64,000 nucleotides of DNA from Rhodanobacter panaciterrae. GTDB lineage: Bacteria; Pseudomonadota; Gammaproteobacteria; Xanthomonadales; Rhodanobacteraceae. The stretch covers positions 1,674,001-1,738,000 of the forward strand of contig NZ_BMXT01000001.1 in NCBI RefSeq assembly GCF_014651895.1, in the 5' to 3' direction. Positions 27,655 to 62,334 of the stretch are shown in pieces. The notes beneath the pieces are model-generated. The model saw only the letters and a program-made list of their open reading frames with translations. It did no database searches and was not told the DNA's origin. How positions within the stretch are numbered: position 1 is the first letter of the stretch; each line of letters opens with the position of its first letter. The position numbers were made by a program, and so were the translations under genes.

Positions 27655-27846
27655 CTTTACGAGCCCGCGCCGCAGGCCAGCAGCATGGACCGTGGCTTCG
27701 ATGACACTTCATGGCGATTCAGAACGCGTTACTCCCGGGCCGGATTTCCCATGTCGGTAAGTGCGGCCGACACAGGAAAAGGTTGCGCGACATCGCCGCA
27801 CTGCTTCATCTATTGCTTGAAGCGCAGACGGCCCGAAAACACTTGG

Positions 27847-28534: not shown

Positions 28535-29683
28535 TCAGTCGAGCAGTTGGCGCAGTGCATTGGCAGAATCCCGCGGATGGCGCCCGCGGCGTAGCAGGTG
28601 GACGCCCTGCTGCATCATTCGCTGTTCGAAGCGGTGCCAGCCCGGCTGTCCTGACGCATACGCCTGATCAGCGGACAGCCGGGCGGCAATTTCATCCGGA
28701 GGGATAACGCTCAACAGGACATCGGGATCATCGGCCGATTGAGCGGAAACGAACACCGCGCCGACCAGCTCCAGCGGAGCCGCCGCGAGCCGGCCGTGGC
28801 CTAGCCGTAAATCGGCTTCGAACTTCTCTACACCGCTACGCCGACGGATGATGGGCGCCTGATTGATCCAGCGCCGGGTTGCATCGTCATCGATGAGACA
28901 CAACGCATCGGCCTGCACATGCAGGTAATTGGCGACGCCGGTGGCGAGCATGCTCTCCGGCTGCACGAAGACCGCATCTTCGGCGAGAAAGTCCAGCCCC
29001 TGCAGCAAGCTGTGCAAGGCCAAGGTCGATTTGCCCGAGCCGCTGGCTCCCAGCAGCAGGATGCCGCGTCCTTCCCGGCCGACGCAGGCGCCATGCAGGG
29101 GGACCAGGCCCAGTCCGCGCGTCGCCAGGGTGAATACGGCAAATTCGATGAGCTCGTAGCGCAGATGGTAGCGATGACTGAGCATGTCCTCCGACGCCAC
29201 TACCAAGGCGCGACGCTGCTCGGGAGCCAGCACCACATAGTTCGACGCATCCATCACGCCGCAGAGCAGGCCCGCACCGGATTGCACGCGCATCGGTGGT
29301 GGCTCCGCAGCGCTCGGGGAAAGCTGGCGCGGCAGCAGGCGCAGTTCGATGCGGAACTCCGGCGTGCCCATCATCAATTGGTGTGGTGGCAGACCGGCGT
29401 AAGCGGCCTCGACAAGATCCAGCAGCGCCTCGCTGGTGCTTTCGAAGCGGAAGCATCCGCCCAGGATCTGCCGACACACCGAGAAGCGGCGATCGGAGCG
29501 CCGCTCGCAAAAAGGGTCTGCACCGGCGTCTTGAACGCCAGCGCAGAAGCCAAGGCCATCATCGTCGATCAAAAGTGTCAGCCGTCTGATTGCCGCGCAC
29601 CGCACGGTGCGGATACGAAAAGAATGCCCAGTAAGTACCGCCGCGCTGGAAAAAGGTTGCGTCCGCCCCTCGATGCACGACAT
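28535..29683 (-). CDS. HPr-kinase-like P-loop protein
   Basis: 382 residues. The C-terminal half is related to the HPr kinase/phosphorylase C-terminal domain: GACVGREGRGILLLGASGSGKSTLALH with the P-loop at 212-220, then FLAEDAVFVQPES, resembling the HprK 'L-x-x-D-D' block. The N-terminal about 190 residues do not resemble the HprK sensor domain. Such truncated HprK-like proteins occur in polysaccharide and modified-peptide gene clusters, often with PqqD and nucleotidyltransferase-like partners; their substrate is not known. It is divergent from the radical SAM gene, and the 139-bp gap between them is the likely shared promoter. Confidence 0.72.
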   Translation of the reverse strand: MSCIEGRTQPFSSAAVLTGHSFRIRTVRCAAIRRLTLLIDDDGLGFCAGVQDAGADPFCERRSDRRFSVCRQILGGCFRFESTSEALLDLVEAAYAGLPPHQLMMGTPEFRIELRLLPRQLSPSAAEPPPMRVQSGAGLLCGVMDASNYVVLAPEQRRALVVASEDMLSHRYHLRYELIEFAVFTLATRGLGLVPLHGACVGREGRGILLLGASGSGKSTLALHSLLQGLDFLAEDAVFVQPESMLATGVANYLHVQADALCLIDDDATRRWINQAPIIRRRSGVEKFEADLRLGHGRLAAAPLELVGAVFVSAQSADDPDVLLSVIPPDEIAARLSADQAYASGQPGWHRFEQRMMQQGVHLLRRGRHPRDSANALRQLLD

Positions 29684-39996: not shown

Positions 39997-40012
39997 CGGA
40001 CGTCTCTGAAAT

Positions 40013-41949: not shown

Positions 41950-41953
41950 GGAC

Positions 41954-43843: not shown

Positions 43844-43853
43844 GGTTCTGTAC

Positions 43854-45991: not shown

Positions 45992-47241
45992 CACAGCCCT
46001 CCCAGGTAACGTCGCACGACGAGCACATTGAACGCGAGGTAGATGAGATAGTTGATCGCGAAAGCATACATCGCGCCGACCAGGCCGAAGTTCGCGGTAA
46101 GCACATAGACCAACGCCAGATAGCTGACCGCAAACACGCACTCGGAGATCACGAACAGCCGCGTCATGGCCTTGGCCAGCATGACGTAGGACAGAATGAA
46201 GGAAGCGATCTTGACGACATCGCCCAGCAGCTGCGGTCCGTACAAGGCATTGGCGGACGCGAAGTCCGCACTGAACAGCAGACGTGTCACCCAGCTCCTC
46301 GAAACATAGACCACGGCCGCCAGAGCAGTGACCACGGGCATCAGGTAGCGGTAGGCATGGCGCAGTTCGAGCACGAGCGACGCACGCTCGTGCGTCGACG
46401 CCAGCTTGGGCAGGTAATAGATGTTGATCGCCGTGGTGAGGAACAACAGATAGGCGTCCGACACCTTGCTCACGGCCTGCCAGTAACCGACCTGCTCCCA
46501 GCCGAACTGGACCGCGAGGTGATCGCGAACCGCGATATTGATCAAGGGCGGCAACAAGGCCGAGCTGAGCGTCATCACCGAAAAGGCCGCGAGCCGCAAA
46601 GTCATTTCGCGGTCGAAATGCATCCGCAGCATGCTGCGCTGGAAATAGGGGCTTCGCCACCAGGCTGGCAAGCCGACGGCGAGGCACAGCAGCTGCCCCA
46701 GCACGAGCGCCAGCAGCGCGCCGTACAGATGCAGCCAGCGCGACAGCCCGAGCACCAACACGATGCTGCAAGCCGACCCCAGCACCTGGATGAAGGCGAG
46801 CCGGCGCACATCCATGAAGCCGTTGATCACGGCAAGGATGTAGTTGACCAGTGCAATGCCGAGCTGGGCCACGGCGAGTACGCGGATCAGGTTTGCATAG
46901 CCTGGGTCGCCCAGCAGCCAGAGCGCAATCTGCCCACTGAACAACAGCGCGACGCCTCCCATCAGGCAGGACGCGCAGAGTGCATACCAGAGCGCGGCGG
47001 CAAGCAGGCGCGACAATTTTTGCGCGTCGTGGCGATATTCGGCGACGTACTTCACGATGCCGGCACTGATGCCGCCACCAGCCAGCACGGCCAGCAGTGA
47101 CATCAGACTCATGAACTGGCCCAGCTTGCCCACCCCGGCGGGTCCGGCAAACCACGCCACCAGCTTGATCACGACCAGCGCCGCCAGCAAGCGTGCGGCG
47201 GTGGCAATCGTGGTGTAGAAGCCGGTGCGCACGATGTTCAT
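45991..47241 (-). CDS. WzxE-like lipid-linked oligosaccharide flippase
   Basis: 416 residues, about 12 TM helices of the MOP superfamily. It is visibly similar to E. coli WzxE (enterobacterial common antigen lipid III flippase) in several blocks: [52 protein letters not shown] and [11 protein letters not shown]. It moves undecaprenyl-PP-linked repeat units to the periplasmic face. The ATG at 47241 (ATGA overlap with the aminotransferase stop) is preferred to a GTG at 47250. WzxE substrates carry a 4-acetamido-4,6-dideoxygalactose; here the neighbouring FdtA/FdtB pair predicts a 3-amino-3,6-dideoxyhexose. Confidence 0.88.
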
Positions 47242-48350
47242 GGCGGACACTCGAACGCCTGACAGGCTGCGATCACCCGATCCACCGCATCGTCGCTCAG
47301 CGTGGGTCCGATCGGAAGGCTCAGCACTTCATCGTGCAATCGTTCCGTCAGCGGCAGATGGGCGTCCTGCAAGCCGGCATAGGCGGGTTGCTTGTGCGGC
47401 GGCACCGGATAGTGCACCTGGCTCTGGATGCCATGCGCCTGCAGATGCTGTTGCAAGGCATCCCGGCGAGAGCAGCGAACCACGAACAGATGCCAGGCGT
47501 GCTGTTCCTCGCGCGCCACCGCCGGCAACTGGATGTGCGGATGACGGATACCGTCGCGATAACGTTGTGCCACTTGGCGACGCCGTGCAATGTCCTCGTC
47601 GAGATACTTCAGCTTCACCCGCAGCATGGCGGCCTGGATTTCGTCGAGCCGCGAATTGAGGCCCTGGAACAAGTGGTGATACTTCACTGCGGAACCGTAG
47701 TTGCGCAGGGCCGCGATTCGCTCCGCCAGCACGTCGTTGCGGGTCACCACCGCGCCGCCATCACCCAGCGCACCAAGGTTCTTGGTGGGAAAAAAGCTGA
47801 AGGCTGCCGCTTCCCCGAACGCACCGGCCTTGTTTCCGGCGCTGGCCGCTCCATGCGCCTGCGCCGCATCTTCGATCAGCAACAGGTTGTGTCGCCGTGC
47901 CAGCGCAGCCAATGCAGGCATGTCGGCCAGCTGGCCATACAGATGCACTGCCATGATCGCGCGCGTACGTGGCCCGATGGCCGCCTCCACGCCAGCGGGA
48001 TCCATGTTGAAAGTAGCAGGATCGGGTTCCACCGGAACCGGCACAAGCCGGTTTTCGGTGATCGCAAGAAAGCTGGCAATGAAGGTATTGCCCGGCACGA
48101 TGACCTCGTCGCCCTCTTCGATGGCGCCGAGTTCCTTGTAGCCACGCAGGATCAGCGACAGCGCATCCAGTCCATTGCCCACGCCCACGGCATGACGCAC
48201 GCCGCAATAGTTCGCGAACTCGCGTTCGAAAGCCGCAAGCTCCTCGCCAAGCACATACCAACCCGAATCGATCACCCGCGCGGCGGCCGCCTTCAGCTCT
48301 TCGGCATACCGCGCATTGACATCCTTGAGACTGAGGAACGGGACATCCAT
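47238..48350 (-). CDS. DegT/DnrJ sugar aminotransferase (FdtB/QdtB-like)
   Basis: 370 residues, PLP-dependent. [13 protein letters not shown] start, [35 protein letters not shown] (phosphate site), [13 protein letters not shown] with the PLP-ring Asp161, and [15 protein letters not shown] with the Schiff-base Lys190. This lysine block is typical of FdtB/QdtB, which aminate a dTDP-3-keto-6-deoxyhexose using glutamate. The FdtA-like isomerase in the same operon supplies that substrate. Start choices include ATG 48377 and 48365; ATG 48350 has GGAG and gives the normal family N-terminus. Product stereochemistry (Fuc3N or Qui3N) is not resolved. Confidence 0.88.
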
Positions 48351-48364
48351 CAGGGCGATCTCCA

Positions 48365-49297
48365 TCAGAGCGTCCATTCATAGAAATCGTGCACGATGGC
48401 GCGCGCGCCGAAATATTCCTTTTGCGTGATCAGGCCGGCGTTAAGCGCCTGCCCTTCCCGTTCGGTGGAAATGCCGAAGGAAAAATAGAGCCTGTTCGCA
48501 TAGGTGTTGGTGATGAGCTCTGCCAAGAGCAGACTGAGCGCGCCCAAGTGCTGCCCTTCGTCTGATGCGGCCAGATATTGGGTATGCACGGTCGTGCCGA
48601 AATCGTAGACAAGGACGCCCGCCAGAAGAATGTCGTCGCGGCGAGCCTCATGCAGCACGATATGTTGCGGAAACCGGGTTTGCAGCAGGCGCAATTCCGG
48701 CAAGCTGTGGACTGGCACGACGCCATGTTTCTGCAACACCTGCGAAAGCAACGCATGGAAGTCTGCGGGATTGGTACCGGCCTGCAACGCGATACCCGCC
48801 TTGCTTGCCTTGTTGACGGCACGCCTGCGTCCGTCCGTGAAGTGAAACGGTTCCTGCAACGCAATCACCGAGGACATGTCGCGACGGGTCAGTCGCGCTC
48901 CCAATCGATGCAGGGCATACAGGTCTTCTTCCGCGGGATGCGCATGGAACACGTGCGGAACTGCCTTGTAGATGACGCGTTCCACACCCAGCGAGCGATA
49001 GTGGTTGCCCAAGCTCTCAAATACCGCAAGCGTCGACTCGGCGCGCAACGCGTGGGTCGAAACAAGCCCGGCATAAGTAAGGCCACCATGGCTCATCACC
49101 AGGCTGTCCTTGATGTTCGCGGGAAAAACCGCCACGGCCTCGTTATCCCGCTCAACCATCAACGAACAGTCGACGAAGCGATCCGCGTGGTAATCCATGT
49201 AGCCGCGTCGGTGCAGCAGGTTGCCGTTCCTGGAATGCTCCACCACGGCGTCCCAGGCTCCCGCATCGGCTGAAACGTAGGGTCTAACCGTGAGCAT
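48365..49297 (-). CDS. GNAT-fold acyl/aminoacyltransferase (FemAB-related)
   Basis: 310 residues with the two-lobed GNAT architecture of FemAB-related proteins in surface-glycan clusters. [25 protein letters not shown] (N-terminal lobe), [15 protein letters not shown] (hinge basic helix), and [24 protein letters not shown] with [13 protein letters not shown] in the C-terminal lobe. Members acylate sugars or peptides; a natural role would be N- or O-acylation of the repeat unit. The ATG at 49297 overlaps the upstream gene by 14 bp. Confidence 0.75.
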
Positions 49298-50237
49298 GTT
49301 CGTCACCGACAACACAGGCGCCACGGGCTTCGGCAACCCCGAATCCATCCACCCCCATGTCGTTGCCGTTGTAGAACATCAGCAGCTTGTCGCGTTGCCG
49401 GATCAGCGCGGGATAACAGATGACCCGCGAATCCCAGCCGCTGGCGGACAGCGTCAGTCCCAGTGCCTCGTCGTGACGCTCCCAGCGGATGCCGTCATCG
49501 CTGTATGCGATGCCGGGAAAGTATTCGCCGCCGACATTGCCGCGCGTGAAGTACATAATGTATCTGCCACCGAGCCGATACACGCGCGGACGGCCGATGC
49601 GATATTCGCTGCCGCGGGGTAGCAGGCAGACATGGTCTTCGCGCGGTATGGCATCAAGATCGTCCGTCTCGACATAGCGGATGTGATAGCGCGGAAAAGG
49701 TTGGCCGCCGATGGTTTCCCAATCGTCACCAGCCGCATACCAGATGCGCCAGCGGCCGTTTTCGTGGATGACCGAGTGCACCGCGCCGATGGTGCTGCGA
49801 CCGGGTGCGCGATCGAGGATCGGCGTTTCCTGCACACGCCGAAAATGATCGCCGCCATCGGTTGAAACAGCCAGGCCGGTAAACGCCAGGAACTTGGCCT
49901 TGGCCACACGCTGGAAGCCGACATAGAACATGTGCAGGCCACCCGGCGCATCGACGACATCGCCCAGGATCATGCCATTGTCGTCGAAGCAGCCGTTCCG
50001 CCCGATATCGAGCACCGGCTCGACACTGACCCGCACGATGGACGCAGGGTCGTCCGCCCGCACGTCGACGTAGCCGATCCGACTGACGCCATCGGCATCG
50101 CGAAACCCCGCGTAAACGCGGATGAGCTCATCGTCGATGCGATACGGCGTCGGCGTAAGCGCCGAGTGACGCATCCAGCCGCCCACGCCATGCCGCGCGG
50201 TTTCGAACACCAGCCCTTGCTTGCTCCACTCGAACAT
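49284..50237 (-). CDS. Beta-propeller glycosidase-like protein (GH43/GH32/GH130-like)
   Basis: 317 residues with the repeating aromatic/Gly/Asp blades of five-bladed glycosidase propellers: LIRVYAGFRDADGVSRIGYVD, RWRIWYAAGDDWE, YIMYFTRGNVGGEYFPGIAYSDDG and KLLMFYNGNDMGVDGFGVAEA. No signal peptide is present, so it should be cytoplasmic, which is odd for a hydrolase but compatible with a phosphorylase-like or scaffold role in glycan assembly. Related proteins are seen in O-antigen loci with unassigned function. The ATG at 50237 lies 7 bp after the acyltransferase stop. Confidence 0.72.
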   Translation of the reverse strand: MFEWSKQGLVFETARHGVGGWMRHSALTPTPYRIDDELIRVYAGFRDADGVSRIGYVDVRADDPASIVRVSVEPVLDIGRNGCFDDNGMILGDVVDAPGGLHMFYVGFQRVAKAKFLAFTGLAVSTDGGDHFRRVQETPILDRAPGRSTIGAVHSVIHENGRWRIWYAAGDDWETIGGQPFPRYHIRYVETDDLDAIPREDHVCLLPRGSEYRIGRPRVYRLGGRYIMYFTRGNVGGEYFPGIAYSDDGIRWERHDEALGLTLSASGWDSRVICYPALIRQRDKLLMFYNGNDMGVDGFGVAEARGACVVGDEHAHG

Positions 50238-50244
50238 GCGTTCT

Positions 50245-50910
50245 TCAAAGCCTCACGTCGAGGCTGGACTTGCCGGGCACCGGCTTGGCCGGCGAGCCGA
50301 CATAGATCCGTCCCGGCTCGGTATCGCGGGTGACCAGTGCGCCGGCGCCGATCACATTGTCGGGCGCCACTTTCACATGATCGTTGAAGGTGGCGTTCAC
50401 CCCGATGAAGCTGTTCTCGCCGATCTCGCAATAACCTGAAATGACCGCATGCGAGGTGACGAACACGTTGTCGTGCACGACCGTGCGATGCCCTACGTGA
50501 TTGCCGCTCCACAGGATGCAGTTGTTGCCGATGCGTACGAACGGCTGGATGACATTGCTTTCGAAGATGAAGCTGTTCTCGCCCACGCCGGCATTGCGCC
50601 ATACGAATGCGCGCGTGCTGACGTACGTGGCAAACCGGTAACCTCTGCGTTTGGCATCCAGGTAAAAGCGCGTGCGCAGGCGATTGAGCTGGCTGGCCGG
50701 GATGGCGACAAACACATCGACGTCAGCCGGTGGGTAGTGCGCTTCCAGTGTCTCGTAGGCCACCACCGGACGACCTGCCAGCGTCGACTGCGCGAGATAG
50801 TCGCGCTCGACGCTGAAAGCCACCACGTCATAGTCGCTGTCGTGTTCGAAGTATTCGCAGGCGATCTGCGCGAACTCGCCGGCTCCGATCAGGACTAGCG
50901 GCCTTGACAT
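50245..50910 (-). CDS. NeuD/PglD-like left-handed beta-helix acyltransferase
   Basis: 221 residues. An N-terminal Rossmann-like domain begins SRPLVLIGAGEFAQIACEYF. From about 95 the protein has hexapeptide (LbH) repeats: VGENSFIFESNVIQPFVRIG, CILWSGNHVGHRTVVHDN, FVTSHAVISGYCEIG and VIGAGALVTRD, ending in VGSPAKPVPGK. This matches NeuD/PglD-type sugar N- or O-acetyltransferases. In the FdtA-FdtB pathway an acetyltransferase (FdtC) N-acetylates the 3-amino sugar; this is a plausible functional counterpart. It overlaps the isomerase gene by 16 bp. Confidence 0.85.
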   Translation of the reverse strand: MSRPLVLIGAGEFAQIACEYFEHDSDYDVVAFSVERDYLAQSTLAGRPVVAYETLEAHYPPADVDVFVAIPASQLNRLRTRFYLDAKRRGYRFATYVSTRAFVWRNAGVGENSFIFESNVIQPFVRIGNNCILWSGNHVGHRTVVHDNVFVTSHAVISGYCEIGENSFIGVNATFNDHVKVAPDNVIGAGALVTRDTEPGRIYVGSPAKPVPGKSSLDVRL

Positions 50911-51332
50911 GCTGCCATGTCCTCCAGGTACATGGCGCCACTGACTTCGCGCATGAACTCGGCGTAGTCGGTGATGTAATCGCTCTGGTCGTACAACTGG
51001 TCGGCCAGCACCATCAACACGCAATCTTCGCTGAAGTCGTACAACTCGCGCCATACCATGCGGCCGAGCATCAGCCCCTGCGAGGGATCGTCGAGCACGA
51101 CCTCGACTGGCCCGCTGCCATCGTCCAGCAGAAAGGTGACCGAGCCGCGCACCGCTACTGCCAGTTGATGCAGGTGGCGGTGTGCGTGCTTGCCCCGATG
51201 CACATCGTTCTGCGTGGCGTAGATGTAATACACGCGCCGGATCACGAAGGGTACGTTTCGATCCTCCTCCAATGCGATGAGCATGCCGCCGTTGTCGCCA
51301 TGCTTCTGCAACTGGATTCGTTCGATTTCCAT
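50895..51332 (-). CDS. dTDP-4-keto-6-deoxyglucose 3,4-ketoisomerase (FdtA/QdtA family)
   Basis: A 145-residue cupin of the FdtA/QdtA/WxcM-C family. It has the conserved VPFVIRRVYYIYATQNDVHRGKHAHRHL core with the His-rich active site at about 45-55, LAVAVRGSVTFLLDDG, and GLMLGRMVWRELYDFSEDCVLMVLAD. It converts dTDP-4-keto-6-deoxyglucose to the 3-keto isomer for amination by the FdtB-like enzyme. It is the first gene of the long minus-strand operon. RmlA and RmlB, needed for the precursor, are not in the window. Confidence 0.9.
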   Translation of the reverse strand: MEIERIQLQKHGDNGGMLIALEEDRNVPFVIRRVYYIYATQNDVHRGKHAHRHLHQLAVAVRGSVTFLLDDGSGPVEVVLDDPSQGLMLGRMVWRELYDFSEDCVLMVLADQLYDQSDYITDYAEFMREVSGAMYLEDMAACQGR

Positions 51333-51585
51333 GTTCTGGACCCGGCTGTAGATTCTTGGAAGATGCCCCTCTTGCTTGAGTGCCGCGCCGGTGTGGAAAG
51401 GTTGCGTCGTGATCGGGACTGCTCAAAGCACCAGCTTCGCTCTGGATGGCAGGCCGACCTGCTCCTGCCGGAGTTGGGCATGAACGCAACCTTTCATGGC
51501 GCAACCGGCACCCAGTTACACCAGGCTCTCTACAGCATCACGCGCACGAGCCTCGCTTAGGCATGAAGCAAGCCATGGGGGATGC
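51333..51585. promoter_or_regulatory. Divergent promoter region between glycan operon and cytochrome operon
   Basis: About 250 bp with no gene I can support. It should carry the promoter of the glycan operon (minus) and of the decaheme-cytochrome operon (plus). I see no convincing -35/-10 pair or operator, and no terminator. Confidence 0.35.
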
Positions 51586-52788
51586 ATGGGGATCGGCTGG
51601 ATGACGGCAACGCGCAAAAGCAGCTTGGGTAGCCAGAGGACTCGTCGAACGACGGGTGTGATCGCACTGTCGCTGACGGTGTTGCTGGCCGTGATGACCG
51701 GGCTTGGTGGCGTGTTGCTATGGTCGTCCGGTGCGCAGGCGCAGCAAACTGACAATGCGAGTGCCGGCCAGGCCCCCGCCCATCAGCCGTCCAGTCGCCT
51801 GAGCGAGAGCGATATCGCACGCATGCTGCCCTCCACCGACATGGGTGCTGGCGCATCGATGCATGGCGACATGCACGCGCGCGCATTCGACGGCAGCCAA
51901 GCCACACCGTTCGATGCCGCGCCGATCCCGCAGAACCCGTTGGCGCCGGGCGCGGATGCGATCGGCGCGAAGAGCTGCGCCGTCTGCCATGCGCTGGAAA
52001 CCATCCAGGCCTCGCACAGCCTGCATGTGGCCTCGTTCCGTGCAGGCAGCGCCAACACTGGGCCACAGGCTTCCTGCGAAGCCTGTCATGGCCCCGGCTC
52101 GGCGCACGCGAAGAACCCCGCGGCCGCGGGCCTGATCATCGCCTTTACCCACGACGCCAAGACCCCGATCGAGACCCAGACGCGCACCTGTCTGAGCTGC
52201 CACGTCGGCGGCGCGCGCCAGCACTGGATCGGCTCGGCGCACCAGGAGCGCGGGCTCTCGTGCACCGACTGCCACAACCCGATGACTCGGTCGTCGGCCG
52301 AAGGCGTGCTGGCGAAGGATTCCATCAACCAGGTATGCGCGACCTGTCACCAGGATGTTCGCGCCCAGTTCAACCGCCGTTCGCACATGCCGCTGCCGGA
52401 GGGCCAGATCTCCTGCGTCGATTGCCACAACCCACACGGCAGCATTACCCAGCCGCTGCTGAAGACCGACACCGTCAACGAGACCTGCACCACTTGCCAT
52501 GCCGAGAAGCGCGGACCGTTCCTGTTCGAGCATGCGCCGGTGGGCGAGAACTGCCTCAACTGCCACAGTGCGCACGGCTCGAACCAGGAAAACCTGCTGG
52601 TACTGCCGGTGCCGATGCTGTGCCAGCAGTGCCACACGAATAGCCAGCACCCAAACGATCTGCTGACGCGTCAGAACCTGCGCAACGGATTGGTGCCGGA
52701 CGAACGCGTGATGGAGCGCAGTTGCCTGAACTGCCACAGCAACATCCACGGCTCCAACAACCCCAATGGCGCCAAGTTCCACCAGTGA
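51586..52788 (+). CDS. Decaheme c-type cytochrome, MtrA/PioA/DmsE family
   Basis: 400 residues with exactly ten CXXCH heme motifs, with first cysteines at about 131, 164, 202, 226, 251, 277, 301, 323, 346 and 380. The signal sequence is unusually long (about 52 residues, RTTGVIALSLTVLLAVMTGL, ending GAQA). A heme-free segment of about 75 residues, longer than in MtrA and reminiscent of PioA, precedes the first heme. In MtrA/MtoA/PioA systems this protein sits inside the MtrB-type barrel and carries electrons across the outer membrane; DmsE is the relative in extracellular DMSO reduction. Starts at ATG 51586 or 51601 are both possible. The barrel gene follows 25 bp downstream. Confidence 0.93.
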   Translation: MGIGWMTATRKSSLGSQRTRRTTGVIALSLTVLLAVMTGLGGVLLWSSGAQAQQTDNASAGQAPAHQPSSRLSESDIARMLPSTDMGAGASMHGDMHARAFDGSQATPFDAAPIPQNPLAPGADAIGAKSCAVCHALETIQASHSLHVASFRAGSANTGPQASCEACHGPGSAHAKNPAAAGLIIAFTHDAKTPIETQTRTCLSCHVGGARQHWIGSAHQERGLSCTDCHNPMTRSSAEGVLAKDSINQVCATCHQDVRAQFNRRSHMPLPEGQISCVDCHNPHGSITQPLLKTDTVNETCTTCHAEKRGPFLFEHAPVGENCLNCHSAHGSNQENLLVLPVPMLCQQCHTNSQHPNDLLTRQNLRNGLVPDERVMERSCLNCHSNIHGSNNPNGAKFHQ

Positions 52789-52813
52789 ATGGCCATCGGC
52801 GAGAGGCGGCGAG

Positions 52814-55444
52814 ATGCTGAAGCGTAAACCTCTGACTGCGCTGCTGGGCCTGACACTTGGTCTGGCCAGCCCGTTGCCGCTGCTGGCGCAGACCGATGCC
52901 AGCGACAGCCAACGCGTGGGCAACATCCAGTTCGGCAACAGCCTCGATCCCACTGGTTGGGGCGCATATGCCGTGCCGGATCCGGTGGGCATGTCCTACC
53001 TGCATGCCGGCCAGCTGCGCACGCCGACCGGCGTGCTCTACCCCTGGCCCCACCAGATACCCGACGAGGCCCCGCTCGGCACGGGCGACTGGACGTATAC
53101 GTGGCTGGCTCAATTCGGCTACATCCACACCAGCGGCGATCGCAATGACGAACTCCTCCGCATGTATTCGGGCTGGAAGGATGGCGCCGCGCTGGGCATG
53201 TTCGCGTTCTCCGCCCTGAACCACAAGACCGGCCAATACATCGACTTCCGCGGCAGCCGGATCAGCAGCCAGGATCAGTACTACCGCATGCGCGCGGGCC
53301 GCTACGGCGACTATCACATCGAGGTGTTTTATCGGGATATCCCGCATACCCTGAGCACCACAGCCTTTCCGCTATGGAATGGCGTGGGCTCCACCAACCT
53401 GACTCTACCCAACGGTCTGGCCACCGGCAGCACGCCGGCCCAGGTGCAGGCCGTGGAGGCAAACCGGCCACGCCAGACTTTGTCGGTAACGCGCCAGAGC
53501 GAGGGCGTCAGCTGGGAAAGCGCGCTTTCCCGGAACTGGATCGGCTACGCCGGCGTGACCCATGAGAAACGCACGGGTGACCGCGACTGGGGCGGCCCGA
53601 TGTACCTGACCTACTTCTTCGGAGCTCCGGGGCCCGGTGGTCCCGGCACGCCGAACATTCCGGGCACCTACGGCGGCCAGTACGACACGGTGCGACCGGT
53701 CGACTTCACCACCACCGACGTCAACCTTGGCCTGCGCAACAAGGGCGGCGCCTCGGGCTGGCTGTTCAACTTCACCATGACCGGCTCGTTCTTCCGCGAC
53801 AACAAAAGCACCTTGAACTATGCGGTCCCGTTTGCCGTGGCGCCGGGCTCCACCTCGGTGGCCACCGGCGGCACCTGGTCGCTGGAGCCGGACAACAACT
53901 ACTACAACGTGCGGCTGGAAGCGTCGCATCCGCTGAAGCTCTGGCACGGCGAGTTTTCCATCTCGGCGGCCTACAGCAGCATGCGGCAGAACGATGCGCT
54001 GCAGGCGCCACTCAGTCCGATGTATTGCCCGAGCGGACAGTTCCTCGGCACGACCGGCATTGCCTGCGCGGACTGGAACACCACGGCTGCGCTGTCGCGG
54101 CAGGACGGCGATGCGCGCATCGACAGCGGCCTGCTCAACCTGCGCCTGGATTTCCGTCCCAGCGCGAAATTCAGCTGGCACCTCAATCTGCGCCAGCGCG
54201 ACGAAGACAACATGACGCGCTACACCATGTACAACCCGTTGACCGGACAGTACGGCTATGTCCCCGAGAACGGCGCGGAGCCGGTCGTTACCGGGCAGAC
54301 CGAACTGTTCCAGCCCGGCAGCCCGCTTTACCAGTCGAACTTCGCGCAGATCGCCAGCATTCCCTTCAGCTACAACGACCGCAAGACGGAGCTGGGCGGC
54401 AGCTACCGGGTCAACCAGAACAACACGCTGAGCGCGAGCTACCTGCTCGACCATCAGACGCCGCACCCGCGCGAACGTACTTACATCAACGACCAGCACC
54501 TCAAGCTGAGTTGGGATACCCGATCGCTCGGCAGCGCCACTCTGCGCCTCAGCTACGAATACCAGAAGCGCAGCGGCGGCCCCTACAACCCCGACCCGTA
54601 TCTCGCCGCGTATTCGCCCTCCATGCCCGGGTACGTGCCGCTTGCCGTCGGCGATACCGCGTTCACCGTCGCCCAGATGTACAAGTACGACATGAGCAAC
54701 CTCGAGGCGAGCAAGCTCAAGGCGATCCTGACCGAGCCGCTGGGCACCACGGCCACCTTCACCGCCACGCTGTATGGCAACCGCCTTCGCTACGGCGCGG
54801 ATATCGGGCGGCAGTCTTACGACACGACCGGCGCCGACTTGTCCTGGGACTGGGAGCCGACGGCATCGACCTCGATGAGCGTTTATGCCGGCATCGAATC
54901 GAGCCGGCTCAAGCAGGGCAATGTCAATGACAACGAGGCATTGGCCTTTTCCTCGCCGGAACAGGCCGACACGCAATTCGGTGGCCCGTTTTTCCCGTAC
55001 GCCAATTTCTGGACGGCGACGGACAACGAGCGCGACGTCGATGCCGGCGCGCATTTCAACCACGTCTTTTCACCGCGTGTCAGGCTCGATCTCAACTACG
55101 ACTACACCTATTCGCGCGGGCTCAACAGCTACAACTACGCCAGCCTGGCGGCGATCTCGTCGGTTTACCTGCCGTTCCTGACCGCGGCAGATATCGGCAA
55201 CAGTTTCCCGCCCAACGTCTATCGCATGCAGACGCTCACGGCCAATCTGAATCTCGGGCTGACCCGCAGAGTAGGCGTGCGTCTGTATGGCAAATACGAG
55301 TTCGGCAATTACGCCGACTGGCACTACGCCGGTTTCGGCATGCCTGCCGATCTCATCGTCGGCAACCGCGTCTTCACCGAGTTGGGTCCGCAGCCGCACT
55401 GGCATGCCATGGTCGTGGGCGTATTCATGACCGTGAAGCTCTGA
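52814..55444 (+). CDS. MtrB/PioB-family outer-membrane beta-barrel
   Basis: 876 residues with a signal peptide ([17 protein letters not shown]) and a long series of amphipathic strands rich in Tyr and alternating polar residues, ending at KL after [13 protein letters not shown]. Length, partner gene and repeated blocks ([59 protein letters not shown]) fit the MtrB/PioB decaheme-associated porins, which sheathe the MtrA-type cytochrome. The N-terminal CXXC of Shewanella MtrB is not seen. The ATG at 52814 has a GAGG site; the ORF extension overlaps the cytochrome gene. Confidence 0.9.
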
Positions 55445-55457
55445 GGAGAACGCCGCC

Positions 55458-56165
55458 ATGTCTTCTACGCATCGTGTTCTTCATCTGGTGGCGGCCGTCA
55501 TCCTGTGGCTTCCCGCGTTTTCCATCGCCGCGGCCGAGGGCCCTCCAGCACACACGCCGGCGACATGGACCGACCTGCGCCAGCAGCAGCCCATCACCGG
55601 CGACGTCCAAGCCGGCCAAGCGAAGTCGGCCGTATGCGCCGCCTGCCACGGGCCGCAGGGCCTGGCCATCGTGCCGATCTTTCCGAACCTAGCCGGGCAG
55701 TCGGCGACCTATCTCTACGTGCAATTGATGACGTTCAAGAACGGCCAGCGCAACGACCTGGTCATGAGCGGCCAGGCCGCCGCGCTAAGCGACGCCGACA
55801 TGCGCAACCTCGCCGCCTATTACGCCTCGCTCCCGGCCAAGCCGGCTGGCCAGGCCGATGCCGCCTCCCGCGGCGGACGGCTGTTCCTCGACGGCGACCC
55901 GGCCCAGGGCGTACCACCCTGCCAGGGTTGCCATGGCCCGACCGGGCAAGGACCGCGGGTGTACCCCAGCAATACGCCACAACCGCCTTGGTCGACTTTC
56001 CCGCGATTGCACGGCCAATCGGCGATCTACGTGACCAAGGCGCTGGGCGATTTCAGCAACGGCACGCGCAGTGGCACGAGCAACGCGCAGATCATGCACA
56101 ACGTGGCGCAGACGCTCGGCGATGCCGACATACAGGCGCTGTCGACCTACATCGCGACGCAGTGA
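55458..56165 (+). CDS. Diheme c-type cytochrome (c4/c553-like)
   Basis: 235 residues with an N-terminal signal peptide and two class I cytochrome c domains. The heme motifs are CAACH (60-64) and CQGCH (155-159). Each is followed by a proline-rich segment and axial-Met candidates ([21 protein letters not shown] in the first, [24 protein letters not shown] in the second). It starts 13 bp after the barrel gene, preceded by GAGGAG. It probably shuttles electrons in the periplasm between the decaheme conduit and inner-membrane complexes, a role played by PioC, MtoD or FccA/STC in other systems. Confidence 0.9.
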
Positions 56166-56523
56166 GCGAACAAGGCTTCCTGACCCAGCTGCGCACCCGG
56201 AATGGCGAACCCTCTGGCTGCGCCGGTGCAATCCGCCCCGGGTACACTCCACCTTGAATCACGAAATGACGTCGAGCCCGTGTCGGTTCGAAACGCGTTG
56301 CCGGATCCATCAAGCGTGGGCAGCCATCTCATGACCAGGGTCAACGATATGAAATCTGGACCAAGTCACCTCGTCATGACTCTGCCCGCTCCCGCGACGC
56401 GATTTCGTGCGTCATAAACAGGTAGGCGCCATGGCGGAGCATCACACTCTGCAGATCAAAGCCGGCCTGCACCGATACCGCGCCTGGCGGCATCACCCTG
56501 ATTGCCTAATCAGCGGAACTTCC
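56166..56523. other. Intergenic region after the cytochrome operon
   Basis: About 360 bp. Short overlapping frames (for example 56202-56417) have no recognisable coding character. The open frame of the next gene extends into this stretch, but its residues there are not signal-like. No terminator hairpin was found by eye. Confidence 0.4.
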
Positions 56524-57324
56524 GTGACCCGCACCCTCCTTGGCTACATCTCATTGGCCTTTGTGGCATGCCTTTCCATGCCGCTGCATGCCCAATCAAG
56601 CACCTTCAACGGTACCGCAGCGCTCAGTTCGCAATTGGTTGACCGGGGCCAGGCGATTACCGGCGATACACCCATCTTGCAGGGAGCCGCCTCCTGGACG
56701 TTTCCGACCGAGGGCACTGCATCCCAGTCCCTTCCATCAGGTTGGTCGCTGGGCCTGTCGGGGAGTGCGGAGGTGCGCTCCCTGGACCGTCTGGTGGAAG
56801 CCATGGCTCAGGCATCCCGCTATTGGTCCCTTTCAAGTGACTGGCAGATGCAGGTGAGCCTGCTCTACTACCGATATCCCGGCAGTACCGGCGGGTCAAA
56901 AGCCTTTGATCGAGCCGAAACGGGGATCAACTGGAGCTACCGGGACGTGCTGACCGCTGGCCTGTCGGCGATCCACGTCATCGGCGCCAAGAACCAGCGG
57001 CTGCGCGGTGCTGCCGACATCAACCTCCATTGGCCATTGACGCGGCACTTCTCCCTTTCCGCCGGCGCGGGCATCACCCAATCCCTCACGGCTCCCTATC
57101 GCCCCTACCGTCGCGTTTATGCCAGCTCCTACAGCCACGCCTACGCCAACTATTCCGACTCCACCCGCGCAAACCATTACAGCTATGGCCACGTGGGGTT
57201 ATTGTGGAGCAACGGACCTTGGCGGATAGAACTCGACCGCATCGTGACGGCCCCGGAAACACAGCAGCAATGGGCCAATCTGGACGCCTCACGCTGGGTC
57301 GCAACAATTTCGTGGTCCTTTTGA
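56524..57324 (+). CDS. Outer-membrane beta-strand protein, TorF-like putative porin
   Basis: About 266 residues. A signal peptide (TRTLLGYISLAFVACLSMPLHA, cleavage before QSS) leads to strands typical of small TorF/Gcw_chp porins: FNGTAALSSQLVDRGQAITGD at the N-terminus, alternating GWSLGLSGSAEVRSL and WQMQVSLLYYRYPG segments, and a terminal aromatic strand WVATISWSF. A GTG start at 56524 with GGA upstream is chosen over ATGs at 56407 or 56431 because it alone puts the signal peptide at the N-terminus. Its function is unknown. Confidence 0.68.
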   Translation: MTRTLLGYISLAFVACLSMPLHAQSSTFNGTAALSSQLVDRGQAITGDTPILQGAASWTFPTEGTASQSLPSGWSLGLSGSAEVRSLDRLVEAMAQASRYWSLSSDWQMQVSLLYYRYPGSTGGSKAFDRAETGINWSYRDVLTAGLSAIHVIGAKNQRLRGAADINLHWPLTRHFSLSAGAGITQSLTAPYRPYRRVYASSYSHAYANYSDSTRANHYSYGHVGLLWSNGPWRIELDRIVTAPETQQQWANLDASRWVATISWSF

Positions 57325-57330
57325 TGCAGA

Positions 57331-57365
57331 GGCAACCTTTTTGCGTTGGTTGGGTACTTACGTAG
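57331..57365 (+). promoter_or_regulatory. Candidate ECF-type promoter upstream of the sigma/anti-sigma operon
   Basis: GGCAACC at 57331-57337 resembles the AAC-containing -35 of ECF sigma promoters. A GTACTTACGTA segment lies 16 bp downstream, leaving about 35 bp to the sigma ATG. Autoregulation of the sigma operon through this site is inferred, not shown. Confidence 0.38.
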
Positions 57366-57400
57366 CGAACCCGCCGTAGTCCGATTACCCCCACCGAGCC

Positions 57401-57985
57401 ATGAACGACGACGATATCGACGCTGACGTCACCGACCGCATGCTGCTTCAACGCATGTCGACGGGTGATCGCGCCGCGCTGAGCGTGCTGTATCGCAGTT
57501 ATCACGGCAGGTTGTGTCGTTTCCTGTCCCGCCTGACGCGGCGCCCCGATGTCATCGAGGAAGTCATCAACGACTGCTTCTGGGTGGCCTGGCAAAAAGC
57601 CGGCAGCTTCCACGGCGACTCACGTGTTTCCACATGGCTGATGGGCATTGCCTATCGCTGTGGGCTGAAGGCGCTGCGGCAACACGGTGACGAACCGGTC
57701 GAAGACGACCCTCAGTCGGAACAGCGCACCGCTGACAATGACCTGGATGAAGATCGCGAATTGCGCGACTGGCTGAGCAAGGGGCTCGATCATCTGTCCG
57801 TGGATCAACGCGTGGTGATCGAACTGGTCTATGGCGTGGGTCATACCCTGGACGATGTTGCCGTCATCATGCAGTGCCCCGTAGGCACGGTGAAGGCGCG
57901 CCTGTTCCACGCGCGAGTCAAGCTGCGCAATGTGCTTCCGGCGCTGGCAGGCGACTCGCCCAAGCACAAGGAGGGCGCGCCATGA
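57401..57985 (+). CDS. ECF RNA polymerase sigma factor
   Basis: 194 residues with sigma region 2 (LSVLYRSYHGRLCRFLSRLT, VIEEVINDCFWVAWQKAGSF, VSTWLMGIAYRCGLKAL) and region 4 (LDHLSVDQRVVIELVYGVGHTLDDVAVIMQ, GTVKARLFHARVKLRNVL). There is no region 1 or 3, as expected for ECF factors. The stop overlaps the anti-sigma ATG (ATGA). The target genes are not known, but its own operon is a candidate. Confidence 0.92.
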   Translation: MNDDDIDADVTDRMLLQRMSTGDRAALSVLYRSYHGRLCRFLSRLTRRPDVIEEVINDCFWVAWQKAGSFHGDSRVSTWLMGIAYRCGLKALRQHGDEPVEDDPQSEQRTADNDLDEDRELRDWLSKGLDHLSVDQRVVIELVYGVGHTLDDVAVIMQCPVGTVKARLFHARVKLRNVLPALAGDSPKHKEGAP

Positions 57986-58614
57986 CGTTCCCGAAGCATT
58001 CCGGCCGCGACTGCGTCCGTGCCTGGGATGCGATGCCCTGGGTACTGCAGAACAGCGCCACGCCAGAGCAAGGCGCGTGGCTGGAAGGTCATCTGGCGCA
58101 GTGCGAGTCGTGCCGTACGGAATTCGCCCAACAAAGTCGCTTGCGGCAAGCCATGTCGCTACCCACGGATATTTCGATCGATGCGAATGTCGGATTGCGG
58201 CGCTTGCTGGGTCGCCTTGATGCGCCCGATGCCGTGGAAGCGCCCTATCGTTCGCGTTCGCGAAACTGGCTGAGCCGGGCGCTGGTCGCCGTGGTGCTGA
58301 TCCAGGCGCTCAGTATCGGTGCGCTGGGCGTGAAGTTGTGGTCGACCGGCGGCAGCCCTGCGTATCGCACACTCAGTCAGGAGTCTGCGCCCGCAGCCCC
58401 AGGCACGATTCGTGTCGTGCCCGATGCGGCCATGACCCTGGCCGATTGGAACGCGCTGCTGCATACCCTCCGGTTGCAGGTCGTTGGCGGCCCCAACGAT
58501 GTGGGTGCCTATACGGTCGCCCCCATGAGCTCCACGTCAACAACTCAAGCATTGCAACAGCTGCGCACCACTCGTGGCATCCGCCTGGCGGAGCCCGTTG
58601 CCGTCACGCCATGA
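57982..58614 (+). CDS. Membrane-bound zinc anti-sigma factor
   Basis: 210 residues. The cytoplasmic part carries EGHLAQCESCRTEF, an H-x3-C-x2-C motif of zinc-binding anti-sigma domains (about 36-47). A membrane helix ALVAVVLIQALSIGALGVKL (about 96-115) is followed by a periplasmic domain of about 90 residues. It is translationally coupled with the upstream sigma gene and the downstream subtilase-like gene (ATGA at both ends). It would hold the sigma factor inactive until a periplasmic signal is received. Confidence 0.88.
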   Translation: MTFPKHSGRDCVRAWDAMPWVLQNSATPEQGAWLEGHLAQCESCRTEFAQQSRLRQAMSLPTDISIDANVGLRRLLGRLDAPDAVEAPYRSRSRNWLSRALVAVVLIQALSIGALGVKLWSTGGSPAYRTLSQESAPAAPGTIRVVPDAAMTLADWNALLHTLRLQVVGGPNDVGAYTVAPMSSTSTTQALQQLRTTRGIRLAEPVAVTP

Positions 58615-59912
58615 AATACGGCTTTCTCACCCTTGTCGCAATCGCGGCTTTGAGCGCGTGCGCATCATCGCGCCTCATGGCGGCAACGGAAAACCACGCC
58701 AACCTAGACCACGCATCGACCACCAGCGCGTCCTCCATGGACAGCCAGCGCGACATCGTACTGGCTGTCGCCAACCCGCTTGAGTCACCCTCCACAAACG
58801 CTGGCTCCAGTCTGCTGGGTTATGCCGCACCACGGTATTACGGCGCCGGTCAGCGCGCGGTTTCCGTCCTGGCCGCATTGAAGAAAAGTTACGGACTGCG
58901 CGAGGTCACCGGTTGGCCGATCAAGGCCCTCGGCGTGTACTGCGTCGTGTTCGAGCCACCTTCAGGCGTGACCCAGGATGCCTTGCTCAAGGCGCTCGCC
59001 AAGGACGATCGAGTGCAACTTGCGCAGCCACTGCACGAGTATTCCGTCTACTCGGAAAGATCGCAGGACGCACACCAATACAACGATCCTTACGTCAATC
59101 TGCAACGCGGCTTCGTGGAAACCGATGCCGCCCTTGCGCAGAACATCAGCCAGGGCAATGGGGTGCATGTCGCGATCGTCGACACAGGCGCCGACACGAC
59201 GCATCTCGATCTGCAGGGGCGCATTCGTGATACGCACAACCTGGTTGATGACGATGCATCAGCGTTCAATCACGATAGCCATGGCACGGAAGTCGCGGGT
59301 GTCATCGCCGCAAATGCCGACAATCATCAGGGGATTGTGGGGATCGCACCCAAGGCCATGCTCAGTGTTTACAAGGCATGCTGGTATCAGCCGGCTCCAA
59401 ACGCCGGCGCGCGCTGCAACTCGTTCACCCTCGCCAAAGCGCTGGCAGCGGTTCTTGATACGGATGCCCGTATCGTCAATCTGAGTCTGGGCGGTCCGCC
59501 AGATCCGCTGCTCAATTTGCTGCTCGCCAAATTGCTGAGCCAGGATCGCATCGTGATCGCGGCCATGCCACCGGATGGGACTGTCGGCGGGTTTCCCAAC
59601 AATGTGCCAGGGGTCATTGTTGTTCGCGTAAGTGATCCATCGGCAGCACCGCCTGGCGTTTTGAGCGCACCCGGTAACGACATCCTGACAACCCAGCCCG
59701 GTGGGGGGTATGACTTCACTTCCGGATCATCCATGGCTGCCGCGCATGTGAGCGGCATTGCCGCTTTATTGTTGTCTCTCACCCCAGGCCTGGATGCGCG
59801 CGCCATCCATGATTTTTTGCTACGAAGCAGCAAAGTCTCCAACGGGACACTCCAGGTAAACGCAGCATCGGCGGTGGAGACATTACGCAGCGCGCAAAAA
59901 ACCATCCCATGA
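58611..59912 (+). CDS. Subtilisin-like (S8) protease lipoprotein with altered oxyanion region
   Basis: 433 residues. The N-terminus has a lipobox (IAALSAC, Cys 17). The catalytic blocks are VAIVDTGAD (Asp191), HDSHGTEVAG (His224) and TSGSSMAAAHVSG (Ser374). In canonical subtilases the oxyanion Asn lies in an AAGN-type segment and the serine block reads GTSMAAPH; here the corresponding segment reads IVIAAMPPDG and the serine block GSSMAAAH. The triad is intact, but the oxyanion Asn appears to be absent, so activity could be low or specialised. It is the third gene of the ECF operon and could act on the anti-sigma factor or on a cell-surface target. Confidence 0.88.
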   Translation: MKYGFLTLVAIAALSACASSRLMAATENHANLDHASTTSASSMDSQRDIVLAVANPLESPSTNAGSSLLGYAAPRYYGAGQRAVSVLAALKKSYGLREVTGWPIKALGVYCVVFEPPSGVTQDALLKALAKDDRVQLAQPLHEYSVYSERSQDAHQYNDPYVNLQRGFVETDAALAQNISQGNGVHVAIVDTGADTTHLDLQGRIRDTHNLVDDDASAFNHDSHGTEVAGVIAANADNHQGIVGIAPKAMLSVYKACWYQPAPNAGARCNSFTLAKALAAVLDTDARIVNLSLGGPPDPLLNLLLAKLLSQDRIVIAAMPPDGTVGGFPNNVPGVIVVRVSDPSAAPPGVLSAPGNDILTTQPGGGYDFTSGSSMAAAHVSGIAALLLSLTPGLDARAIHDFLLRSSKVSNGTLQVNAASAVETLRSAQKTIP

Positions 59913-59941: not shown

Positions 59942-61228
59942 TCATCGCCCGGATGAAGGTGTCGTCCCATCCGCGCATGCGCGTGCACGCTCCAGCAGCA
60001 GTTCGCGCTCGCGCATGTTTTGCGTGAGCCCGGCCGCTCGCTCGAATTCGACGAGGGCCTCGTAAGGGCGACCCAGCTTGATCAGCAGATCGCCGCGCAC
60101 GGTCGGCAGCAGGTGATAGTTCGCCAGCGCCGGCTCCGCGACCAGCGTATCGACCCGTGCGAGGCCGGCAGCAGGGCCGAATGCCATGGCAACGGCTACC
60201 GCACGATTCAACTCAACGACGGGAGAGGGAGCGACTTGCGCAAGCACCGCATACAGCGCCGCGATACGGCTCCAGTCCGTGTCTTCCGCCACCAGGGCGC
60301 GTGCATGACAAGCGGCAATCGCCGCCTGCAGCGCGTACGGGCCACGCGCACCGCCCAGTTTTTCGGCATAATCGAGCGCCGTCAGGCCACGGCGGATCAG
60401 CAATCGATCCCACTGCGCACGGTTCTGCTCCAGCAGCAGGATCGGCTCGCCGTGGCCATTGACGCGGGCACGCGAACGCGAGGCCTGAATTTCCATCAAC
60501 GCGACCAGGCCGTGTACCTCCGGCTCGCGCGGTGCAAGCCCGACCAGCACGCGGCCGAGACGCAGCGCCTCCTCGCATAGCGCCGGCCGCATCCAGTCGC
60601 CGCCAGCCGTCGCGGAATAGCCTTCATTGAACACGAGGTAGATCACCTCGAGCACCGACGACAGACGCGCCGCCAGTTCCTCGGCGCGCGGCACCTCGAA
60701 CGGCACCTCGGCCTTGGCCAGACTGCGCTTGGCGCGCACGATGCGCTGCGCGATCGTCGGCTCCGGCACCAGGAACGCGCGGGCGATCTCCTCGGTGGTC
60801 AGGCCACCGAGCAGGCGCAACGTGAGCGCCACGCGCGCCTCGACCGACAACACCGGATGACAGGCAGTGAACATCAGGCGCAGCAGATCGTCGCCGATCG
60901 GATCGTCCAGAGCTGCCTCCACCTGTGACACGGCGTGTTCCTGCTCGCTCTCGAGCTCGTACATCAACTCCACGTGCTTGCGCACAAGCAGCTTGCTGCG
61001 GCGCAGGCGATCGATAGCGCGGCGCTTGGCGGTGGTCATCAGCCACGCGCCGGGATTGTCCGGCACGCCCGATTGCGGCCACTGCTCCAGTGCAACGACC
61101 AGCGCATCCTGCGCCAGCTCCTCGGCCAGCCCGACGTCGCGCACCATCCGTGCGAGACCGGCGATGAGCCTGGCCGATTCGATTCGCCAGACGGCGTCGA
61201 TGGCGCGGTGGGTATCGGTCGCTGTCAT
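59942..61228 (-). CDS. ECF42-type sigma factor with C-terminal helical domain
   Basis: 428 residues, much longer than simple ECF factors. Region 2 is at about 20-90 (GLAEELAQDALVVALEQWPQ, NPGAWLMTTAKRRAIDRLRR) and region 4 at about 130-175 (ARVALTLRLLGGLTTEEIARAFLV, TIAQRIVRAKRSL). A roughly 230-residue helical C-terminal domain with DUF6596/TPR-like character follows (YLVFNEGYSATAGGDWMRP). This layout, with a DGPF-domain neighbour at 62335-62754, defines the ECF42 group, which lacks a classical anti-sigma factor. It starts at the ATG at 61228. Confidence 0.92.
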   Translation of the reverse strand: MTATDTHRAIDAVWRIESARLIAGLARMVRDVGLAEELAQDALVVALEQWPQSGVPDNPGAWLMTTAKRRAIDRLRRSKLLVRKHVELMYELESEQEHAVSQVEAALDDPIGDDLLRLMFTACHPVLSVEARVALTLRLLGGLTTEEIARAFLVPEPTIAQRIVRAKRSLAKAEVPFEVPRAEELAARLSSVLEVIYLVFNEGYSATAGGDWMRPALCEEALRLGRVLVGLAPREPEVHGLVALMEIQASRSRARVNGHGEPILLLEQNRAQWDRLLIRRGLTALDYAEKLGGARGPYALQAAIAACHARALVAEDTDWSRIAALYAVLAQVAPSPVVELNRAVAVAMAFGPAAGLARVDTLVAEPALANYHLLPTVRGDLLIKLGRPYEALVEFERAAGLTQNMRERELLLERARACADGTTPSSGR

Positions 61229-61273
61229 AGCAACCGATCACACCATCTGCCTCCCGTCGACGCAAGGGGCGGA

Positions 61274-61801: not shown

Positions 61802-61874
61802 GGATCGCTCCGGTCAGGGCGTTGAAGTGCGGCGGTGCCAACGACCGCCGGGGGTGGAAGCCTGAAGCGGCCAG

Positions 61875-62288: not shown

Positions 62289-62334
62289 GGGAATGCTCCG
62301 TCGGTTTTGCGTCGAGGCCGGATCGAGACCCGGC

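Follow-up and report, generated by a model that had tools for sequence, protein, structure and literature searches.

Conduits in which a decaheme cytochrome is paired with an outer-membrane barrel are known from MtrCAB, which in Group 2 and in most of the Group 3 members among the gammaproteobacteria is accompanied by the periplasmic diheme cytochrome PdsA (reported in PMC8805035), from PioABC of Rhodopseudomonas and from MtoAB(D)-CymA of Sideroxydans. The rus pathway of Acidithiobacillus, as reported in PMC10654088, comprises Cyc2, rusticyanin, Cyc1 and aa3. Here we describe a locus of Rhodanobacter panaciterrae in a stretch of 64,000 nucleotides (contig NZ_BMXT01000001.1, positions 1,674,001 to 1,738,000; hereafter the window), which by its sequence encodes a porin-cytochrome conduit with a cytochrome c4-like third protein, followed on the same strand by genes for an extracytoplasmic function (ECF) sigma factor, an anti-sigma factor and a subtilase. 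The type of conduit is known. We did not find the control circuit described: among the open-access papers listed by our searches, none was on ECF sigma control of MtrAB-type genes and none on a c4-partnered MtrAB clade. Our reading of the whole, to which we give a probability of about 0.55, is that the conduit acts as an inward electron wire ending in c4 and is placed, together with surface polysaccharide genes, under control of the ECF sigma factor. Members of the host family are best known as aerobic and denitrifying heterotrophs, and such a wire could help to explain at the molecular level what Rhodanobacter does in nitrate-reducing Fe(II)-oxidising cultures, where its role is disputed.

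The assignment of the conduit genes (Table 1) is based on family and structure matches far above chance. The decaheme cytochrome contains ten CXXCH motifs, the first at residue 131 and the last at residue 380. It passes the TIGR03508 model (258.8 bits, cut-off 192.2) and matches the MtrA chain 6r2q_A over residues 117–396 with an E-value of 1.9e-60, alignable across all hemes; the extension N-terminal to heme 1 contains a few invariant residues. The barrel passes PF11854 (251.1 bits, cut-off 23), fails the stricter TIGR03509 (181.5 bits against 240.05) and matches 6r2q_B, the MtrB of the solved Mtr complex, at the sequence level (E 2.2e-12). A structure model of the barrel alone, with a 38-sequence alignment as input, had a mean predicted local distance difference test score (pLDDT) of 80.6 and 26 strands of at least 10 residues by our own count. 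Its top structural match was 6r2q chain B (E 9.9e-37, template modelling (TM) score 0.89 by target length), and the next matches, outer-membrane barrels of the TonB-dependent kind, were far weaker. The third protein has CXXCH motifs at residues 60 and 155, passes PF00034 (60.4 bits, cut-off 21.3) and matches the cytochrome c4 structure 6q2u over residues 48–232 (E 2.3e-38); it fails the PdsA model NF049874 (47.4 bits, cut-off 330). Among 24 aligned rows, M213 was invariant and M103 nearly invariant, both at positions expected for c4 ligands, which suggests His/Met ligation of each heme. Export signals of the conduit proteins were judged by eye. An earlier sequence-only reading of this DNA had proposed a conduit of exactly this layout, and the open reading frame check reproduced its heme counts, the barrel length and the intergenic gaps of 25 bp (decaheme–barrel) and 13 bp (barrel–diheme). 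The matches to MtrA, MtrB and c4 likewise bear out its identification of the three proteins, and the refuting outcome that it had named for the barrel, a prediction that the cytochrome would not fit inside, did not arise, the model of the barrel alone having the shape of MtrB. Its three genes were correctly delimited; it left the four same-strand genes at 56407–59912 unmentioned, and with them the module of sigma factor, anti-sigma factor and subtilase, and did not notice the promoter motif that the genes share.

Relatives were collected from at least 588 stretches matched in named genomes, 399 of them encoding relatives, of which the best 80 were used. These 80 loci, together with 40 loci of the host family and the window, gave 112 rows for a first decaheme tree, and 108 were used after four near-duplicates (L075, L077 and two rows of L090) had been left out. 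The decaheme cytochrome of the window was placed inside a 58-row clade with a Shimodaira–Hasegawa-like approximate likelihood ratio (SH-aLRT) support of 100. By their titles, other members of this clade include loci from Dyella, Dokdonella, Pseudoxanthomonas, Stenotrophomonas, Thauera, Thiorhodococcus, Thiococcus, Methylobacter and Ca. Ferrigenium straubiae. Outside the clade were Shewanella loci with adjoining decaheme surface-type cytochromes (MtrCAB-like) or with a DmsA-sized gene, as well as loci with mono- or tetraheme partners. In a second tree of 47 of the 108 rows, the c4 type formed a single split at 100/100; an approximately unbiased (AU) test against uniting it with the Shewanella rows was borderline (p 0.045). 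The partner gene followed the same division. A two-CXXCH frame with c4-like spacing was present up to 5.2 kb downstream in 48 of the 50 clade loci (all except L091 and L092) and in 1 of 42 outside (L142), counting rows whose sequence continues for 4.2 kb or more downstream, which left out 7 of 57 rows inside and 8 of 50 outside. A partial decaheme cytochrome encoded by L078 is 92% identical to that of the window over residues 171–400. Four loci from the same bacterial family as the host (L035–L038) combine decaheme and barrel with mono- or tetraheme partners and stand apart from the c4 type. Together with the family-wide searches given below, these data point to a separate branch of porin-cytochrome conduits that is organised around cytochrome c4, without NapC-type CymA in most family genomes.

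Variations of the gene order were also seen among the relatives. Two loci (L072 and L073) each carry two decaheme–barrel–c4 sets in tandem, and in Chromatiaceae and betaproteobacterial relatives (L094–L097, L101, L104) two consecutive diheme c4-like genes are located behind the barrel.

Profile searches of the host genome (3.46 Mb) detected one barrel gene and one paired-CXXCH protein. No MtrC-type surface decaheme cytochrome was found among the neighbouring genes, and PF09699 found only the decaheme cytochrome of the window genome-wide, a search made without MtrC's own models. PF03264 (NapC/NirT/CymA) had no match in the genome at E 0.001, a search that covers quinol dehydrogenases of the NapC/NirT kind. 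The genome encodes an aa3-type CtaD, a cbb3 set and a NorB-like protein, and a single high-potential iron-sulfur protein (HiPIP) matched at C1:1573365, away from the conduit. Genes for MtrC, HiPIP, MtoD or CymA were not seen adjoining the conduit, as the sequence-only reading had noted. Its remark that such operons are not a textbook trait of the Xanthomonadales needs correction in that the barrel is not rare in the host family: the PF11854 cut-off was exceeded in 87 of 233 family genomes, a count that includes Mto-type loci, and Cyc2- and MtoAB-like proteins are reported in Rhodanobacter (PMC11366258). Strong NapC/NirT matches (E < 1e-30) were seen in 30 of the 233 genomes. Of the 84 genomes with a strong barrel match, 17 had one and 67 did not; in the genus of the host the count was 0 of 23 barrel-bearing genomes. 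Some weak PF03264 matches near E 1e-4 sit, by position, at the decaheme gene.

A further gene of the host (contig C1, L167:2422-4483) encodes a Cyc2-like cytochrome-porin of 461 amino acids with one CXXCH; the gene after it codes for a c4-like diheme protein. The cytochrome-porin fits the Cyc2 signature published in PMC8406198 and was matched by neither Pfam (E 0.01) nor NCBIfam models (E 1e-8). With its diheme partner it possibly provides a second entry for extracellular electrons.

Compared with the described systems, the locus shares decaheme, barrel and a diheme cytochrome with MtrCAB plus PdsA but has no adjoining MtrC, its diheme protein fails the PdsA model, and no NapC-type CymA was found in the genome, where NetBCD was outside the search. 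Like PioABC, it shows decaheme and barrel genes with no surface cytochrome gene beside them, and in several relatives HiPIP follows c4 (see below); unlike PioABC, its third gene is a c4 gene and the HiPIP of the host lies elsewhere. The decaheme and barrel are also common to MtoAB(D)-CymA, whereas here no MtoD gene adjoins, no CymA gene was found in the genome and the decaheme clade is separate from loci with mono- and tetraheme partners, in a tree containing neither a named PioA nor a named Sideroxydans sequence. With the rus pathway the locus has in common an outer-membrane cytochrome and a c4-type cytochrome, and in some relatives a blue-copper protein, but MtrAB stands in place of Cyc2, and the likeness is one of layout.

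Cytochrome c4, HiPIP and blue-copper proteins are high-potential carriers, and genes for the latter two accompany part of the relatives. HiPIP genes after c4 were detected with PF01355 in L040, L048, L071 and L082 and with a custom model in L072. Plastocyanin/azurin-family genes (PF00127) were found within or just after the operon in L040, L048, L070, L080, L085 and L088, and custom models gave blue-copper matches in L044, L081, L083, L087 and, weakly (E 1.9e-12), L092. For each of the custom models (HiPIP, copper, azurin) four relatives served as input, L083 and L087 among them, and these match by construction; beyond model members, the models matched near the conduit in L044, L072, L081 and L092 and away from it in L065, L067 and L089. 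These narrow models found no match in loci outside the c4 clade. The operon of the window itself contains no HiPIP or blue-copper gene. Because such genes occur in some relatives and no NapC-type CymA was found, electron uptake into the oxidase branch appears to be favoured, an argument drawn from known families; the cbb3 and aa3 oxidases of the host and its Cyc2-like protein with the c4-like neighbour point the same way. By eye, cytochrome c maturation-like genes were recognised behind the operon in L083 and L085.

Alignment of upstream regions revealed a common motif, GCAACCTTT-N12-GGYAC, that lies ahead of both the sigma gene and mtrA. A first pattern with a wrong spacer (N14) gave no site at the expected places, and the N12 spacer was re-measured from the upstream alignments. 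Since the counts in the window and in the host genome were made with a pattern already adjusted to these sites, the family-wide comparison is more independent as a test. When up to three mismatches were allowed, the window yielded six sites against 0.47 expected, and none of 100 shuffles gave as many. When no more than one mismatch was allowed, the whole host genome also had six sites, of which five fall inside the window; a reversed control pattern had none. Within the family, the exact motif was found in 87 of 233 genomes, namely in 83 of the 112 with a strong anti-sigma match vs. 4 of the 121 others; this comparison is uncorrected for shared ancestry, and 29 of the 112 lack the exact motif. 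The reversed control was mildly commoner in anti-sigma genomes as well (19/112 vs. 9/121, Fisher p 0.028). With a loose pattern, the motif was found ahead of the sigma gene in all 17 loci, and with a stricter one in 15 of them. A weight matrix made solely from the sigma-upstream sites recovered a site before mtrA in 10 of 112 rows; the p values of 0.005 to 0.009 are conservative, as the background windows contain real sites, and the scan missed loci with an uncalled decaheme gene, L056 among them. The stricter pattern was found before none of 13 TorF genes. Two genomes carry the mtrA motif at a distance from the module: in G147 a distance of 1.6 Mb on one contig separates it from the sigma module, and in G037 the module lies on another contig of a draft genome, where linkage is possible. 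The findings predict a specific control circuit and promoter, and the motif is offered here as a regulon marker.

Table 1. Conduit, regulatory module and motif sites in the window (positions counted from its first nucleotide; aa, amino acids)
Feature	Position	Strand	Remarks
Motif site	27758..27786	-	2 mismatches (window-scan pattern) or 1 (genome-scan pattern); ~100 bp before ABC-transporter gene 25900-27654
Motif site	29632..29660	-	1 mismatch (window-scan pattern), 0 (genome-scan pattern); ahead of HPr-kinase-like gene (28535 to ~29605)
FdtA/WxcM-like gene	50895..51332	-	First in divergent polysaccharide run
Motif site, divergent	51377..51405	-	0 mismatches; 44 bp ahead of FdtA-like gene
Motif site	51486..51514	+	0 mismatches; 71 bp ahead of decaheme start
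Decaheme cytochrome, MtrA-type, c4-partnered clade	51586..52788	+	400 aa; N-terminal extension ahead of heme 1
MtrB/PioB-type outer-membrane barrel	52814..55444	+	876 aa; model with 26 long strands
Diheme cytochrome c4	55458..56165	+	235 aa; one Met aligned per heme, probable His/Met ligation
TorF-family-like putative porin	56407..57324	+	TIGR02001 39.4 bits, under the cut-off of 47.15
Motif site before sigma gene	57332..57360	+	1 mismatch (window-scan pattern), 0 (genome-scan pattern); suggests that the sigma gene is autoregulated
ECF-type sigma factor	57401..57985	+	194 aa; passes TIGR02937 (72.1 bits, cut-off 42.9)
Anti-sigma factor	57982..58614	+	zf-HC2-like N-terminus, presumed membrane helix, C-terminal domain probably resembling a subtilase prodomain
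S8 subtilase with own prodomain	58611..59912	+	Asp, His and Ser motifs invariant in 12 aligned sequences including the window

The ECF sigma/anti-sigma pair RpoE-RseA is released by regulated proteolysis. The module of the window is like such pairs in its ECF sigma factor, the zinc-finger-like N-terminus of the anti-sigma factor, a probable membrane helix and the coupling of the genes (4-bp overlaps between sigma and anti-sigma and between anti-sigma and subtilase); it differs in adding a subtilase as the third gene and a subtilase-prodomain-like end to the anti-sigma factor. The zf-HC2 score of the latter (22.1 bits) is just under the cut-off of 22.2, and four of five relatives tried pass, L054 failing. 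In a defence-gene scan, the subtilase gave general subtilase matches and weak IetS matches. Among the sequences listed, the trio was found beside the conduit in 18 including the window, corresponding to 17 distinct loci because L055 and L078 seem to be the same contig. It follows the conduit in the window, L055–L058, L060–L062, L068 and L078, directly precedes it on the same strand in L040, L048, L070, L080 and L081, precedes it with an intervening gene in L054 and is divergent in L051 and L064.

The model of the anti-sigma factor shows a helical N-terminus, a long helix at residues 94–121 (pLDDT about 46–61), taken as the membrane helix, and a C-terminal domain with the order beta-alpha-beta-beta-alpha-beta (pLDDT 81–91 for the block, 74 at its end). 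This domain, as modelled, probably resembles a subtilase prodomain. With hhalign it aligned to the prodomain of its own partner subtilase at E 0.0035 and a probability of 9%, compared with E 0.68, 0.55 and 0.052 for three control profiles. The sole Pfam match of the fragment was the subtilase prodomain PF22148 (15.2 bits against 21, E 0.03; E 0.19 for the whole protein). The best Foldseek matches include the prodomains of subtilisin and PC1/3, most with TM 0.62–0.75 by target; the top list also holds other ferredoxin-like folds, and nothing was under E 0.001.

In the mechanism that we propose, the decaheme cytochrome would be held inside the 26-strand barrel and form a wire across the outer membrane between an extracellular redox partner and periplasmic c4. 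The usual direction would be inward, from a reduced extracellular donor, with Fe(II) in solution, in minerals or in organic complexes as the first candidate; c4 would accept the electrons and pass them to a cytochrome oxidase of the cbb3 or aa3 kind, supplementing organotrophic growth. An envelope signal could act via the subtilase to free the sigma factor from the membrane-bound anti-sigma factor, whose periplasmic domain probably resembles the subtilase prodomain, and the freed sigma factor would then transcribe its own gene, the conduit and the divergent surface-polysaccharide operon from a single promoter type. More tentatively, and at somewhat under even odds, conduit and surface polysaccharide would make up one subtilase-gated ECF regulon, in which the anti-sigma factor displays a decoy prodomain and an envelope or redox event that frees or activates the protease removes it and switches on both.

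Several observations weigh against parts of this proposal. The prodomain likeness is weak by the Pfam, hhalign and Foldseek measures alike, and none of the five anti-sigma relatives tried had a subtilase-prodomain match in Pfam. The anti-sigma gene is present in many genomes without a conduit, and in the 58 genomes with strong matches to both barrel and anti-sigma factor, the two lie at most 10 kb apart in 28 and not so in the other 30; taken together with the mtrA site in 10 of 112 rows, this indicates that the conduit is under such control in particular lineages, and most rows beyond the close relatives of the window lack the mtrA site, so that such control is not general to the clade. The host genome has no match to the RuBisCO large subunit and is therefore probably not that of a classic lithoautotroph. 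As for the physiology, a published model of culture KS with Rhodanobacter as a mixotrophic Fe(II) oxidiser, reported in PMC12622760, favours the proposal; PMC11366258 speaks against it in reporting that a Rhodanobacter isolate of culture KS was unable to oxidise Fe(II) alone and that the Rhodanobacter of its own culture has CymA- and MtrB-like proteins. Finally, PdsA is reported to be the diheme shuttle of outward MtrCAB pathways (PMC8805035), so a diheme partner leaves the direction unfixed.

The last point bears on the alternative that the conduit exports electrons, with c4, reduced via a bc1 branch or by another donor, feeding outside oxidants in biofilm or soil as a survival aid at low oxygen in the matrix. 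MtrAB homologues are reported to run in both directions (PMC10734462), CymA- and MtrB-like proteins are reported in the Rhodanobacter of the culture studied in PMC11366258, and the apparent co-control with the polysaccharide operon would fit an oxygen-limited biofilm. We nevertheless consider export unlikely, given that no NapC/CymA was found in the host, that no gene for an MtrC-type surface cytochrome adjoins the conduit and that partners of the c4, HiPIP and blue-copper kind suit oxidases better than the reduction of metal oxides. A plain MtrCAB system was rejected as well, on the genome-wide PF09699 and PF03264 results. That the decaheme cytochrome serves a terminal reductase is suggested by its NCBIfam name, 'DmsE family', which follows from the broad model that it passes, and is very improbable: the tree sets it apart from Shewanella DmsE, at loci with a DmsA-sized neighbour, and neither DmsA nor any other recognisable reductase gene adjoins the conduit. 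A DmsE function was rejected; placement among plain DmsE systems would have refuted the sequence-only reading.

The remaining alternatives concern the module rather than the wire. The sigma factor might serve the polysaccharide genes only, its proximity to the conduit being incidental; the anti-sigma gene is indeed commoner than the barrel (133 vs. 90 of 233 family genomes at E 0.001), and the lack of linkage in the 30 genomes mentioned above agrees with this. The zero-mismatch motif before mtrA in the window, the mtrA motifs of G147 and G037 despite their distant modules, and the five loci in which sigma, anti-sigma and subtilase genes run straight into the conduit genes on one strand make it improbable. 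We judge it similarly improbable that the target of the subtilase is the conduit rather than the anti-sigma factor, with the protease maturing the decaheme cytochrome, for instance, by removal of its N-terminal extension. A subtilisin-like protease reportedly trims a Geobacter cytochrome, the subtilase gene adjoins the cytochrome gene in five loci and the extension contains a few invariant residues; against this, the subtilase gene overlaps that of the anti-sigma factor, which itself bears the prodomain-like domain.

The minus-strand genes behind the divergent motif site include those for FdtA-like, hexapeptide-transferase, acetyltransferase, aminotransferase, flippase, glycosyltransferase and Wzz proteins. 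They belong to a long minus-strand run (36240-51332 and 23846-25732) with many polysaccharide genes and a GGDEF protein further on. At 25900-32526, HPr-kinase-like, redoxin, ABC-transporter, B12-binding radical-SAM and NTP_transf_5 genes are grouped with motif sites, the redoxin gene lying between the genes headed by the 29632 and 27758 sites; this group resembles a small cluster for a peptide or natural product. On the other strand, at 59942-62754, a second sigma factor with DUF6596 is encoded, adjoined by polyketide-cyclase-like, glyoxalase-like and YCII proteins.

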